Source: Brachybacterium squillarum M-6-3 | GTDB taxonomy: Bacteria > Actinomycetota > Actinomycetes > Actinomycetales > Dermabacteraceae | DNA length: 64,000 nucleotides | Assembly: GCF_000225825.1 (NCBI RefSeq) | Contig: NZ_AGBX01000001.1 | Span: 372,001 to 436,000 of the forward strand | Direction of reading: 5' to 3' | Shown here: in pieces, positions 21,946 to 26,930 of the stretch | Layout: every line of letters begins with the position of its first letter | How positions within the stretch are numbered: the stretch's first letter is position 1 | Notes under the pieces: model-generated | What the model saw: the letters and a program-made list of their open reading frames with translations, nothing else | Told to the model about the DNA's origin: nothing | The model's database searches: none | Made by a program: the position numbers and the translations under genes

Positions 21946-22081
21946 TTCCGCTCCCTACCCCCTGAGGTGATGTGTCTCAGGTCACAGAATCCTCGTGTGA
22001 CGAACCCTCGGGACGCGACGTCCTCATGATGTCCGTACTTCCGATCCGGCAATCCCGCCGGCGCGATTCGAAGGAGTCATC

Positions 22082-22639
22082 ATGGCGAACACTCCCATCC
22101 CCCAGACCGGTTCCCAGCAGGAGCGCGAGGCCGCGAAGCAGCAGGCCGAGCAGGAGAAGGCCCAGCAGCAGGCGCAGCAGGAGCAGAAGCAGGAGCGCAC
22201 GCTCCGCGGCCCGCTGCAGACCGAGCAGGGCATCACCACCCTCGAGGACACCGTGGTCGCGAAGGTCGCCGGCATGGCGGCCCGTGAGGTCCCCGGCGTC
22301 TACGACATGGGCAACGCCGCGCGCCGCGCATTCTCCGCCGTCACCGACCGGATCCCGAACTCGCAGACCAACGTCGCCGGCGGCATCAGCGTCGAGAAGG
22401 GCGAGACCCAGACCGCGATCGACGTGACCGTGGTCGTCGACTACGGCGCCTCCATCGTCGAGGTCGGCAACGCCATCCGTCGCAACGTGATCGACCAGGT
22501 CGAGGGCACCACCGGCCTCGAGGTCATCGAGGTCAACATCAACGTGGTGGACGTCCACCTCCCGCAGGAGGACGAGGGCAGCAGCAACGGCTCCTCCAAC
22601 TCCTCCGCGTCCTCCAGCCGCAACGACAGCCTGAAGTGA
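22082..22639 (+). CDS. Asp23/Gls24 family envelope stress protein
   Basis: 185 residues. A Gln/Glu-rich N-terminal region (about residues 10-45, likely helical) is followed by the Asp23 domain: TTLEDTVVAKVAGMAAREVPGVYDMG, GGISVEKGETQTAIDVTVVVDYG, and VIDQVEGTTGLEVIEVNINVVDVHLP. The tail is Ser/Asn-rich. In Staphylococcus, Asp23 forms a layer at the membrane held by AmaP and its loss triggers a cell-wall stress response. First gene of an eight-gene unit; AAGGAG precedes the ATG. A strong hairpin follows, which could make this gene more abundant than the rest. Confidence 0.9.
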   Translation: MANTPIPQTGSQQEREAAKQQAEQEKAQQQAQQEQKQERTLRGPLQTEQGITTLEDTVVAKVAGMAAREVPGVYDMGNAARRAFSAVTDRIPNSQTNVAGGISVEKGETQTAIDVTVVVDYGASIVEVGNAIRRNVIDQVEGTTGLEVIEVNINVVDVHLPQEDEGSSNGSSNSSASSSRNDSLK

Positions 22640-22646
22640 TCCGTGT

Positions 22647-22682
22647 GATCGGGGCGGGAGCGGCATCGCTCCCGCCCCGATC
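22647..22682 (+). terminator. Perfect 16-bp hairpin inside the Asp23 operon
   Basis: GATCGGGGCGGGAGCG at 22647-22662 and its exact complement at 22667-22682, loop GCAT, eight bases after the Asp23 stop and 20 before the next gene. It fits an attenuator or an RNA-stabilising hairpin that raises the level of the first gene over the downstream ones. Confidence 0.75.
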
Positions 22683-22701
22683 CCTCTGACGAGGAGTTCT
22701 C

Positions 22702-22878
22702 ATGAAGACATCGCACTTCGCCCTGCTGGTCGGCCTCCTCCTGGGTGCCGTCCTCGCTTTCGGCAGCTTCAGCCAGTTCTTCCTGGTCCTGATCTTCGCC
22801 GCCATCGGCCTGGCCGTGGGCATGACGATCGAGGGCCGGATCGAGATCCGTGGCCTGACCGACCGCTGGAGGAACTGA
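22702..22878 (+). CDS. Small DUF2273-like membrane protein
   Basis: A 58-residue protein with two hydrophobic segments (FALLVGLLLGAVLAFGSF and FFLVLIFAAIGLAVGM) and a basic/acidic tail EGRIEIRGLTDRWRN. GAGGAG precedes the ATG. Size, topology and the location between Asp23-family genes match the small DUF2273-type membrane protein found in the staphylococcal and streptococcal asp23/gls24 operons. It is too short for automatic gene finding but the operon fit is convincing. Confidence 0.8.
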   Translation: MKTSHFALLVGLLLGAVLAFGSFSQFFLVLIFAAIGLAVGMTIEGRIEIRGLTDRWRN

Positions 22879-22880
22879 CC

Positions 22881-23297
22881 ATGACCGCCCAGTCGGCTCC
22901 GGCTCCCGTCGCCGGCCGTGCGGGGCATCGTCAGTCCGCCCCCGCCGAGAACCGCGGCACCACCAAGGTGCCCGCCAAGGTGGTCGCCCGTATCGCTGAG
23001 CAGGCCGCCTCCGAGGTCCCCGGCATCGGCGCCGCCGCCGGTGGCATCCTCGGCATCGGGGCCCGCCGTGACTTCGACGCCCGTCCCACCGTGACCTGCG
23101 AGCTGTACGGCCACACCGCGGTGCTGCACCTCGACGTCGGCCTCGGCTTCCCCACCCCGCTCGGTCCCGCCCTGCAGTACCTGCGTAAGCACGTGACCAC
23201 GCGGGTCGAATCCCTCACCGGGCTCCAGGTCGGTCGGCTCGACGTCGACGTGTCCTGGATGCACGCGGAGGAAAACACCAGGAGGCAGCTGCGATGA
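22881..23297 (+). CDS. Asp23/Gls24 family protein, second copy
   Basis: 138 residues, mostly one Asp23 domain: KVPAKVVARIAEQAASEVPGI, then ARPTVTCELYGHTAVLHLDV and a C-terminal VESLTGLQVGRLDVDVSWM. It starts two bases after the small membrane gene and its end overlaps the next ATG. It lacks the Gln-rich N-terminus of the first copy. Probably a second component of the submembrane layer. Confidence 0.85.
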   Translation: MTAQSAPAPVAGRAGHRQSAPAENRGTTKVPAKVVARIAEQAASEVPGIGAAAGGILGIGARRDFDARPTVTCELYGHTAVLHLDVGLGFPTPLGPALQYLRKHVTTRVESLTGLQVGRLDVDVSWMHAEENTRRQLR

Positions 23298-23842
23298 GCT
23301 CCATGCCCGACTCCCTGACCCGGCGCCCGCCGCGCACCGTCCCTGCCCTGGTGACGGGGATCGTGCTGCTGGCGCTCGGCGGCCTGGCCGTCTGGATCCT
23401 CGGCGTGCGCCTGATCGAGGGCACCTGGCCCGAGCAGGTCCGCTCCGGCATCGAGACCCTCGCGGGCGTCCGCATGGACGCCGTCGGCGTACTCGTCACC
23501 GCCGGGGTGATGGCCCTGCTGGGCCTGATCCTGCTGCTGGCCGCCATCGTTCCCGGTGACCCGACCAACCGTCGCGTCCTGGAGGACGAGATCCCCGGCG
23601 AGACCGCGGTCTCCACCCGGGACATCGCCCGCCGCGCCCGCACCCGCATCGAGCGGGTGGACGGCGTGCAGTCGGTGGCCGCCCGCGTGAAGGGCAAGAC
23701 CCTCGACGTGCAGGTGTCCACCCCCATCGACGACGCCGAGGGCGTGCGCCACCGTTCCCTGGCGGCCGCCGACCTCGCCCTCGCCGAGCTGCGACCCACC
23801 AAGACCCTGCGTGCCCGTGTCCGGGTGCGTCGGACCCGCTGA
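23294..23842 (+). CDS. DUF6286-type membrane protein of the Asp23 operon
   Basis: 182 residues: a basic N-terminus, two membrane segments (TGIVLLALGGLAVWILGV and VLVTAGVMALLGLILLLAAI) and a cytoplasmic domain with TRDIARRARTRIERVDGVQSVAARVKGKTLDVQVSTP, which resembles an Asp23-like alpha/beta fold. Its ATG overlaps the previous stop (ATGA). Membrane protein with an Asp23-like domain, likely to anchor or organise the soluble Asp23 proteins. Confidence 0.8.
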   Translation: MSSMPDSLTRRPPRTVPALVTGIVLLALGGLAVWILGVRLIEGTWPEQVRSGIETLAGVRMDAVGVLVTAGVMALLGLILLLAAIVPGDPTNRRVLEDEIPGETAVSTRDIARRARTRIERVDGVQSVAARVKGKTLDVQVSTPIDDAEGVRHRSLAAADLALAELRPTKTLRARVRVRRTR

Positions 23843-23854
23843 GAGGAGACGACC

Positions 23855-24484
23855 ATGCGCACCATCTCCGGTCCCCGCAACCGCGTCGTGCTCGTGCAGC
23901 TGGGCCTGCTGCTCCTGCTCGGAGCGGCCTGGCTGATCTCGGCCTCGACCCCCCTGGCCGAGCAGTGGCCCTGGGCCCAGGACGTGCTGCCGCACGCCAC
24001 CTCGACCCTCGGCCACCTCGCCACCGTGCACCAGGCCTGGCTGCTCCCCGTCGGGGCGGTCCTCGCGGTGCTCGCCGCCCTGCTGGGCATCGCACTGCTG
24101 ATCTCGCAGGTGCCTTCGGCCCCCTCGACGCGCGCCCTGCGCGTCACCGACGAGCAGGACCACCTGCTGGGCACCGTCCAGCCCGAGGTGATCGAGCGGG
24201 CCCTGGTGGACGTCGCCGAGGAGACCGCCGGCGTGCAGTCGGCCACCGTCCGCATCGGCGGCGCGGCCTCCGCCCCCTGGGTGCAGGCCGAGGTCGCCGT
24301 CTCCGAGGAGGCCGAGGCCGGCTGGGCCGCCGAGGCCGTCCGCCGTCGTCTCGCCGAGGACCTGGCCACCGTGCTGGGCACCTCCCCGCAGCGGGTGGAC
24401 CTGCTGGTCCGACTCCGCTCCGGCGGCGCCCCCAGCAGCGCCCGGCTGGACTCCCCGGCCCGGGAGGCGAGCGTCCCGGCATGA
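23855..24484 (+). CDS. AmaP-like membrane anchor
   Basis: 209 residues with two membrane segments (VVLVQLGLLLLLGAAWLIS and LLPVGAVLAVLAALLGIALLI) followed by a cytoplasmic domain (VIERALVDVAEETAGVQSATVRIGG, LRVDLLVRL-like end) like that of AmaP, the protein that tethers Asp23 to the membrane. GAGAGGAGACGACC precedes the ATG at 23855. Its stop overlaps the sigma factor start (ATGA), a tight link between envelope protein and sigma factor. Confidence 0.8.
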   Translation: MRTISGPRNRVVLVQLGLLLLLGAAWLISASTPLAEQWPWAQDVLPHATSTLGHLATVHQAWLLPVGAVLAVLAALLGIALLISQVPSAPSTRALRVTDEQDHLLGTVQPEVIERALVDVAEETAGVQSATVRIGGAASAPWVQAEVAVSEEAEAGWAAEAVRRRLAEDLATVLGTSPQRVDLLVRLRSGGAPSSARLDSPAREASVPA

Positions 24485-25077
24485 CCGATCAGCCCGTCGT
24501 CGACGAGCGCTCGCTGGCGTTGCGGGCACAGGACGGGGACATCGAGGCCTTCGAGAGCCTGGTGGACCGGTCCCAGGGTCGCCTGTTCCGCATCGCCTAC
24601 ATGGTGGTGCACGACCGGGCGGACGCCGAGGACGTGGTGCAGGAGTCGCTGGTGCTGGCCTGGCGCCGGCTCCACCTGCTGGACGACCCGGCCGCGTTCG
24701 GCGGCTGGGTCGCCCGCATCTGCAGCCGCACCGCCACCGACCTGGTGCGCCGCCAGGCGCGCCGGGCCACCGATGCCGCCGAGCACCAGGACCTCGACCT
24801 CGCCGCCGAGCCCGGGGAGGCCACCCTCGGTGGCTCCGCCGGGTCCGGCTCCCGCGATCCGGCCCGCACCGCCGAGGTCAACGCCCAGATGGAAGCCCTC
24901 GCGGGCATCCTCACCACCGTCGACCCCGAGCTACGCGCCTGTTGGGTGCTGCGCGAGATCGACGGCATGGCCTACAGGGACACCGCTCGCGCCCTGGACG
25001 TGAGCGAACAGACCGTCCGCGGACGCATCTCCCGCGCCCGCACCCAGATCGTCGACCGCATGGAGGAATGGAGGTGA
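24481..25077 (+). CDS. ECF-type RNA polymerase sigma factor
   Basis: 198 residues. Sigma region 2 is RLFRIAYMVVHDRADAEDVVQESLVLAWRRL (given as its two ends RLFRIAYMVVHDRADAEDVV and QESLVLAWRRL) and region 4 is DTARALDVSEQTVRGRISRARTQI, with an Ala/Gly/Glu linker between. It belongs to the sigma-70 ECF group. It is translationally coupled to the AmaP-like gene upstream and followed at once by an Asp23-like gene in the place where an anti-sigma factor gene usually sits. It probably controls this operon and other envelope genes, but no promoter consensus could be deduced. Confidence 0.9.
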   Translation: MTDQPVVDERSLALRAQDGDIEAFESLVDRSQGRLFRIAYMVVHDRADAEDVVQESLVLAWRRLHLLDDPAAFGGWVARICSRTATDLVRRQARRATDAAEHQDLDLAAEPGEATLGGSAGSGSRDPARTAEVNAQMEALAGILTTVDPELRACWVLREIDGMAYRDTARALDVSEQTVRGRISRARTQIVDRMEEWR

Positions 25078-25079
25078 GC

Positions 25080-25625
25080 ATGGTGCACAGCGAGCAGAGC
25101 GACCGCAGGCCCGGCACCGGCTCCCCGGAGACCGAGGACGACGTCGCCACGCAGCGTTACCTCGACCTGATCCGCTCGGCCCACCGCGAGTGGGGCGAGC
25201 TCGAGCGCTCGGGGGATGCCTCCGTGCAGCTCTCCGAGCAGGCCCGCAGCACGATCCGCGAATCGGTGCGCGCCGACGTGCGCCACGGGGCGCAGGTGCA
25301 GATGCCGCCGACCGCCTCCGGCCCGTACACGATGTCCGAGTACGCCCTGCGCGGTCTCGTCCGCCGCGCGGTCGACCAAGTGGACGGCGCGTTGGCGCTC
25401 AAGGCCCGGTTCGAGCATGATGACTCGGGTCGGGGCCTCCGCGAACGCGGCCTCCCCACCCGCGTGATCTGCCGGATCTCGGCCTCCATCGAGTGCCGTG
25501 ACCTGCAGGACCTCGCGGACCGCGTACGGACCTCCGTGCGCGAGGCCTTCGCGGAGCAGGTGGAGCTGCGCGATCCCGTCGTCGACATCCACATCGAGGA
25601 TCTGCATGAGCAGCACGTGCGCTGA
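25080..25625 (+). CDS. Asp23-like protein next to the sigma factor (candidate regulator)
   Basis: 181 residues from the ATG at 25080, which has GGAGG at good distance; an ATG at 25068 would add four residues. No membrane segment and no zinc-binding anti-sigma motif (HxxxCxxC) are present. The N-terminal part (DVATQRYLDLIRSAHREWGE) is helical and charged; the rest (TMSEYALRGLVRRAVDQVDG, TRVICRISASIECRDLQDLA, RTSVREAFAEQVELRDPVVD) has the Asp23/Gls24 look. By position it could regulate the sigma factor; that is an inference from order only. Confidence 0.7.
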   Translation: MVHSEQSDRRPGTGSPETEDDVATQRYLDLIRSAHREWGELERSGDASVQLSEQARSTIRESVRADVRHGAQVQMPPTASGPYTMSEYALRGLVRRAVDQVDGALALKARFEHDDSGRGLRERGLPTRVICRISASIECRDLQDLADRVRTSVREAFAEQVELRDPVVDIHIEDLHEQHVR

Positions 25626-25941
25626 GTTCGACGCCGCCGACCTGATCGGCGTCGTCTGCGCGGTCCCGGGAGTGCGGGGCATCGAGGCCGGGGTGGCCTC
25701 GGCCCTGCGCACCCTGGACGCGCGCGTCCGCCGCACCGGGGGCGCCCGCTCCCGATACGGCCTGGTGCTGGATCGTAAGCAGGGAACGGTCACCGTGGAG
25801 GTCTCGCTCCTGGCCGACATCGCCGTGCGGAAGGTCGTGGCGGCGATCCAGCAGGCCGTGCAGCAGGCGCTGGACTCCGAGTCCTCGCAGGTCTGGCAGG
25901 TGCTCGTGCGCGTGCAGTCCATCGCCGCCCCCTCCGCCTGA
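25606..25941 (+). CDS. Small Asp23-like protein, last gene of the operon
   Basis: 111 residues, starting inside the end of the previous gene (20-base overlap). It has an Asp23-like pattern: AADLIGVVCAVPGVRGIEAG, a basic middle, VTVEVSLLADIAVRKVVAAI and VWQVLVRVQSIA. No membrane segment. Function unknown; presumably another part of the same layer or its regulation. About 95 bases separate it from the DUF389 gene. Confidence 0.72.
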   Translation: MSSTCAEFDAADLIGVVCAVPGVRGIEAGVASALRTLDARVRRTGGARSRYGLVLDRKQGTVTVEVSLLADIAVRKVVAAIQQAVQQALDSESSQVWQVLVRVQSIAAPSA

Positions 25942-26036: not shown

Positions 26037-26930
26037 GTGGAGACCACCCCTGCCCCCTCCGATGCCGGCGGAGCCACCTCCGCTGCCGGGGTCATCGCCG
26101 ATTCCACGGCGACCGTGATCGGCGCGATGATCGTGGCGCCGATGCTGATGCCGATCCAGGCCACGATGCTCTCCACGGTGCTCGGCGACCGCAGGAACCT
26201 GATGCTCTCCGCCGCGATGGTCGTGGCGGGAGCCGCCACCGCCATCGGTTACCTGCTGGGCATGATCACCCCCACCGACGTCACCTCCGCCACCAGCTCC
26301 CAGGTGGCCGGGCGCACCCGTCCCGAGCTGATCGACCTGCTGGCGGCCCTGGCCACCGGGCTGGTCGGCTCGATCGCCCTGATCCACAAGGACATCGCCG
26401 ACACCCTGCCTAGGGTGGCGATCGCGATCTCCCTGGTGCCGCCGCTGAGCATGGTGGGGCTGACGATGGAGTCCGGCGCCTGGGGTGAGGCCGGTGGCGC
26501 GATGCTGTTGTTCGTCACCAACGTCACCGCGATCATGGCCACCGGCATCGTGCTGATGGCCGCCTACGGCGTCCAGCGGGTGCCGGTCCTGCACCCCACC
26601 GAGCCCGGGGAGCGAGGCGTGAACCGACGCGCCGCCGTGCTCATCGTGGGCGCGATCCTGGTGGCCGTGGGCGTGCCGCTGACCGGCTCCAGCATCGACT
26701 CCACCGCCCGCGCGCTGCGGGAGAACACCCTGCGCAGCGTCGCCGGGGAGTGGGTGGCGGACACCGAGTGGGAGGTGCTGGAGGTGCGGGCCGACTACGG
26801 CGGCTCCACCATCGGGGTGACCGGCGCCGAGCCGGAGCCGGACACGGCGGAGCTGGAGACCCTGCTCGAGGAGGAGGGCGTGGACCCCACCACGGTCGAG
26901 GTGGTCTTCGTCCCCACGGACACGGTGTAA
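26037..26930 (+). CDS. DUF389 (TIGR00341-type) membrane protein, short N-terminus
   Basis: 297 residues from a GTG at 26037 with AGGAG upstream. The family core is clear: GVIADSTATVIGAMIVAPML, LSAAMVVAGAATAIGYLLG, LIDLLAALATGLVGSIALIH, LPRVAIAISLVPPLSMVG and a C-terminal acidic domain with EVLEVRADYGGSTIGVTG. In relatives the first membrane helix precedes the ADSTATVIG motif; here it is replaced by a Pro/Ala/Gly-rich start, so the N-terminus looks truncated. Function of the family is unknown. Confidence 0.78.
   Translation: METTPAPSDAGGATSAAGVIADSTATVIGAMIVAPMLMPIQATMLSTVLGDRRNLMLSAAMVVAGAATAIGYLLGMITPTDVTSATSSQVAGRTRPELIDLLAALATGLVGSIALIHKDIADTLPRVAIAISLVPPLSMVGLTMESGAWGEAGGAMLLFVTNVTAIMATGIVLMAAYGVQRVPVLHPTEPGERGVNRRAAVLIVGAILVAVGVPLTGSSIDSTARALRENTLRSVAGEWVADTEWEVLEVRADYGGSTIGVTGAEPEPDTAELETLLEEEGVDPTTVEVVFVPTDTV

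Follow-up and report, generated by a model that had tools for sequence, protein, structure and literature searches.

The window analysed here is a 64-kb stretch of a Brachybacterium genome of 3.19 Mb, in which a run of eight genes, labelled a, b, c, d, e, s, x and y (Table 1), combines Asp23-type proteins with an ECF sigma factor. The question raised by this locus is what holds the sigma factor in check. A previous, sequence-only reading had found no anti-sigma factor with known motifs, had noted that the protein encoded at 25080 (x) sits in its place, and had proposed that a sigma factor held by a submembrane Asp23 layer and set free when the envelope is damaged would be a new control mechanism.

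Layout and spread of the operon

All eight open reading frames that had been described between 22082 and 25941 were present and intact. The successive gaps from a to y are 62, 2, -4, 12, -4, 2 and -20 nt; the short gaps and overlaps indicate that seven of the genes are tightly coupled, and the gap of 62 nt after a contains a strong hairpin. Genes e and s meet in a 4-nt ATGA overlap. The start of s was placed at the ATG at 24481, and a longer start given by the ORF tool was dropped.

The presence of several Asp23-type proteins could be upheld for a and c, which exceed the Pfam cut-off, whereas x and y fall below the Pfam Asp23 cut-off (x also gives a sub-cut-off match to Pfam DUF6286, 0.013). 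The two membrane proteins with Asp23-like domains correspond to d and e, both of which have predicted transmembrane (TM) segments, DUF6286 and a resemblance to AmaP, but the DUF6286 match of e and the AmaP matches of both proteins are sub-cut-off; with 34-35 bits against the NCBIfam AmaP equivalog, which has a cut-off of 55, d and e are AmaP-like rather than AmaP by this model. A TM segment was also predicted in the 58-aa product of b, and none in x. The product of s (198 aa) is an ECF sigma factor by its domains, with sigma-70 regions 2 and 4 only and a TIGR02937 match over the cut-off.

Table 1. Features of the operon and its upstream region, in window coordinates.
Feature	Description	Position	Strand	Basis or remark
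promoter	predicted sigma-dependent promoter, GTGACG(AACCC)-N11-CGTCCT = GTGACG-N16-CGTCCT	21997..22024	+	57 nt 5' of gene a ATG
a	Asp23 family, 185 aa	22082..22639	+	PF03780 1.8e-26
hairpin	strong hairpin, no T run, in a-b gap	22647..22682	+	RNAfold -42.7 kcal/mol, 65-nt gap
b	58-aa membrane protein, weakly DUF2273-like	22702..22878	+	TM 25-43; Pfam DUF2273 E=0.4; conserved in relatives
c	second Asp23 protein, 138 aa	22881..23297	+	PF03780 2e-6
d	AmaP-like membrane anchor, two TM + DUF6286	23294..23842	+	PF19803 3e-21; NCBIfam AmaP 1e-8, sub-cut-off
e	second AmaP-like anchor, two TM + weak DUF6286	23855..24484	+	PF19803 5e-4, NCBIfam AmaP 2e-8, both sub-cut-off
s	ECF sigma factor, 198 aa	24481..25077	+	Sigma70_r2 1e-13; Sigma70_r4_2 1.5e-9
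x	soluble predicted anti-sigma factor	25080..25625	+	family architecture, AlphaFold, invariable sigma neighbour
y	small Asp23-like protein, 111 aa	25606..25941	+	PF03780 1.2e-3, sub-cut-off; 3' of x in many loci

The order a-b-c-d-e-s-x-y was also found in other Brachybacterium (the nearest named relative carrying the locus being Brachybacterium sp. YJGR34), in three Actinomyces, in one Dietzia and in a further genome of the order, G376; its recurrence in Brachybacterium, Actinomyces and Dietzia excludes chance. The genes on either side, encoding a lipoprotein with three Ltp repeats (PF07553; 21030-21875, directly 5' and outside the conserved module) and a DUF389 membrane protein (26037-26930, directly 3'), were not kept beside the module in the relatives compared. 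Among 24 Brachybacterium genomes, sigma factor and Asp23 were both present in six and both missing from 18; gains and losses affect the module as a whole. One of the six, G016, carries a-b-c-d-e and s-x-y on different contigs (L008/L198, L197). In the sigma tree the Dietzia and Actinomyces sequences (L023-L026) are nested among the Brachybacterium ones, which, with the patchy presence in 6/24 genomes, suggests horizontal transfer of the whole module.

The sigma factor and its neighbour x

Loci were picked from 395 genomes of the class using the profile of x alone, with no sigma factor in the selection, and 60 of them were fetched. An ECF sigma gene lay immediately 5' of x in 48, and in 47 of these 48 the two genes were joined in a GTGA/ATGA-type overlap phase, the lone exception being a mis-called start. 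In the sigma tree the x-adjacent sigma factors formed a single clade, with other ECF sigma factors outside it; the two clade members not labelled as x-adjacent were L096, in which x is unusually long, and L134, in which x was not resolved. As the loci had been chosen by x, neither the adjacency nor the single clade was built into the sample.

The Asp23 genes were less constant in position, lying upstream in line, downstream in line, divergent or elsewhere relative to the s-x pair. This bears on the idea that the direct anti-sigma factor is d, e or y and that x merely serves as an adaptor to the layer. Points in its favour are the 4-nt overlap between e and s in the window, the Asp23-like domains of d and e, and the position of y just 3' of x in many loci. 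Across the class, however, e is not beside s in the divergent and downstream arrangements, y is absent from many other loci and only x constantly adjoins the sigma gene; moreover, the anti-sigma domain seen in relatives is confined to x. We therefore regard a direct role for d, e or y as distinctly improbable.

That domain was found at the N-terminus of x in 29 of the 48 sigma-linked homologues as a zinc segment with the pattern CG...H-x3-C-x2-C, so that x of this zinc type joins a zinc anti-sigma domain at its N-terminus to an Asp23-like domain. As the Pfam model zf-HC2 gave no match at E<=1 in seven chosen x proteins, profile comparisons were needed. A profile of the zinc-type N-terminal domain matched RsrA-type domains with an hhalign probability of 94 (P 1e-7 over 73 columns), whereas the best P in 200 column shuffles was 0.0056. 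Masking Cys and His in both profiles raised P to 1e-3, which was still below all the shuffles but near the reversed control (3e-3); the zinc site thus accounts for most, but not all, of the RsrA signal. Against all PDB sequences, the top match of the same profile was the anti-sigma factor RsiW (E 2.4e-4), the others including a C2H2 zinc finger (1.2e-3), the Mycobacterium tuberculosis protein 3hug (1.8e-3), which we take to be RslA, and the anti-sigma factor DdvA (0.4). The NCBIfam model 'anti-sigma factor' was matched by 8/43 x proteins (best 1.6e-5) and NCBIfam AmaP by 21/43, and Pfam Asp23 was matched by 31. Considered as a whole, therefore, the x family resembles known anti-sigma domains by profile (RsrA, RsiW and NCBIfam). 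An AlphaFold model of one zinc-type x showed four N-terminal helices, with pLDDT mostly 80-97, followed by an Asp23-like domain, the mean pLDDT of the model being 88; the matches listed by Foldseek for this model and that of the window x were to the C-terminal domain only, mostly to the MamM CTD.

In eight large-genome loci that have a homologue of x but no sigma gene (L119, L120, L123-L128), the N-terminal domain was missing in 8/8, although these loci represent one genus-level group and may stand for few events. The remaining Asp23-like x protein of these loci still lies beside a-e genes.

The x protein of the window is of a different type. The zinc ligands C/H...H-x3-C-x2-C were not found in x of Brachybacterium, Actinomyces or Dietzia. 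The window x has helices at residues 16-44 and 53-69, followed at about residues 81-177 by an Asp23-like domain, for which both the profile of the family and the fold predicted by AlphaFold provide support. Its homology to zinc-type x runs from about residue 52 onwards (P 3.5e-6), and profile-search matches begin at about positions 45-62; what is retained is the last anti-sigma helix and the Asp23 domain. The first 50 or so residues showed no anti-sigma likeness in a comparison with RsrA (hhalign P 0.05) or in a search of the PDB, and were poorly modelled by AlphaFold (pLDDT about 57-66). The sigma factors of the window group branch, in their tree, among the partners of zinc-type x, and the loss of the zinc ligands in Brachybacterium, Actinomyces and Dietzia therefore looks like a derived state.

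Conceivably, x here has lost its anti-sigma activity along with the zinc site and is now structural, leaving s under auto-activation alone or under another protein. The unfamiliar N-terminus would fit such a loss, as would the plausible auto-activating promoter of s described below. However, the N-terminus of the window type is strongly conserved across three genera, with Y27, E37, W38, E42, V63, R68 and G70 invariant; the s-x overlap phase is unchanged; and a second zinc-poor branch of the family is clearly homologous overall to the zinc type (P 4e-20). A purely structural x consequently seems to us unlikely.

Thus the statement that no known anti-sigma motif is present is correct for the window, but not for the homologues of x, which have a recognisable zinc anti-sigma domain. 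The placing of x in the anti-sigma position gained support, x being the best candidate on account of the domain fusion in its relatives, its invariable sigma neighbour and the disappearance of the domain where the sigma factor has gone; its coupling to a membrane system of the Asp23 type was likewise upheld. This family evidence makes the case much stronger than gene position alone had done, and x is likely to be the anti-sigma factor of s.

A candidate promoter upstream of the operon

Upstream of a, five other loci shared the motif GTGAGGAWTCC-N11-CGTCYT. A matrix was built from these five, with the window left out, and its top site in the whole 64-kb window, on either strand, was the one at 21997. 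When the consensus was widened to include the window, this site alone in the 3.2-Mb genome matched it without mismatch, a result that the widening itself qualifies. In the split operon of G016, the best site in each piece lay directly before a and directly before s. With both halves preceded by the motif, s probably drives its own operon from 21997-22024, and the split offers a natural test of this regulatory connection.

Across 54 fetched loci scored, motif-like sites before a reached an empirical p<=0.05 in 20, whereas none of the eight sigma-less loci reached this level, and many of the distant loci showed no motif ahead of their Asp23 genes. The one- and two-mismatch matches checked elsewhere in the genome were inside long open frames, and we consequently make no claim for a larger regulon; the simplest reading would be an auto-activating s whose regulon is very small. 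A different ECF-like sequence, GGAAC-N16-GTTT at about 21923, was dropped as a promoter: it lies in an inverted repeat that is the apparent terminator of the upstream lipoprotein gene.

The co-occurrence data and the motif together also speak to whether s is tied to the Asp23 system at all. Genes in an operon often share just broad functions, and s might simply have been carried along with its neighbours. Set against this are the perfect co-occurrence in the 24 congeners, including G016 with the motif before each separated half, and the recurrence of the pairing in many families and several arrangements. Such hitch-hiking is, in our judgement, very improbable.

The hairpin between a and b has a similar counterpart in L022, another Brachybacterium (-40.9), and is absent in Actinomyces. 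It is possibly an attenuator or an RNA-stability element, and through it a could reach a higher abundance than the other genes of the operon.

Proposed mechanism and relation to known systems

By profile, the N-terminal domain of the relatives shares its H-x3-C-x2-C ligands and the following helix with the ZAS factors RsrA, RsiW and RslA. The x family differs from these in its fusion to an Asp23-like domain, and the window x in its lack of the zinc ligands. Anti-sigma factors of the RsiW type are membrane-bound, whereas x has no TM segment.

The asp23 locus of Staphylococcus aureus is dependent on SigB, the general stress factor, and, to our knowledge, encodes neither an ECF sigma factor nor an Asp23-type anti-sigma factor; by contrast, the window operon has an ECF sigma factor of its own together with a predicted anti-sigma factor of the Asp23 type. 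The likeness between the two lies in the combination of Asp23 proteins and AmaP-like membrane anchors in one operon. In S. aureus, AmaP holds Asp23 at the membrane, the loss of either elicits a cell wall stress response, and the pair has a role in envelope homeostasis, although the molecular function of Asp23 is still unclear (PMC6954212).

Starting from the architecture, conservation, family-wide anti-sigma homology and candidate promoter motif that were computed here, we consider it reasonably probable that the operon is a self-regulated envelope module in which x is a soluble anti-sigma factor of s, docked on the Asp23 layer, and s is freed by disturbance. In this model the products of a, b, c, d and e would form a layer of the Asp23/AmaP type that lines the membrane on its cytoplasmic side. 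At rest x would bind s, and we infer that it still inhibits s in the window species even though it has no zinc ligands. Its Asp23-like domain would probably dock it, together with y, onto the layer, and s would come free when the membrane or the layer was disturbed; both steps, docking and release, are proposed by analogy with the biology of Asp23 in S. aureus (PMC6954212). Once freed, s would transcribe from 21997-22024 and so raise expression of the whole operon, its inhibitor x included. A more specific version, which we put forward only tentatively, is that the Asp23 layer is itself the sensor: the zinc-free anti-sigma factor would park s on the layer, and disassembly of the layer would release it with no need for proteolysis or thiol chemistry.

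How far this is new depends on two ECF groups, ECF286 and ECF292, which were reportedly defined by Casas-Pastor et al. 2021. According to the summary in PMC8999054, these are actinobacterial groups (reference sequences WP_003983642.1 and WP_036395736.1) encoded beside soluble Asp23-family proteins predicted as anti-sigma factors; Streptomyces rimosus and Mycolicibacterium cosmeticum are among the species that have such sigma factors. Compared by the description of the gene neighbourhood in that summary, s is similar in being adjoined by the soluble Asp23-like proteins x and y. The arrangement of an Asp23-type anti-sigma factor had thus already been predicted, and the claim of a new control mechanism does not stand in that form. 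Relative to the same summary, the present analysis adds the zinc anti-sigma domain, its loss in one clade and its absence where there is no sigma factor, the eight-gene in-line order and the autoregulatory motif.

The pairing of a sigma factor with an anti-sigma/Asp23 fusion offers a direct readout on Asp23 function, through one promoter and one pair of proteins (s and x). The x family also provides a natural series from zinc-bearing to zinc-free anti-sigma domains on one scaffold. If the proposed model is true, the Asp23 layer would be tied to transcriptional control of envelope stress across the Actinobacteria.
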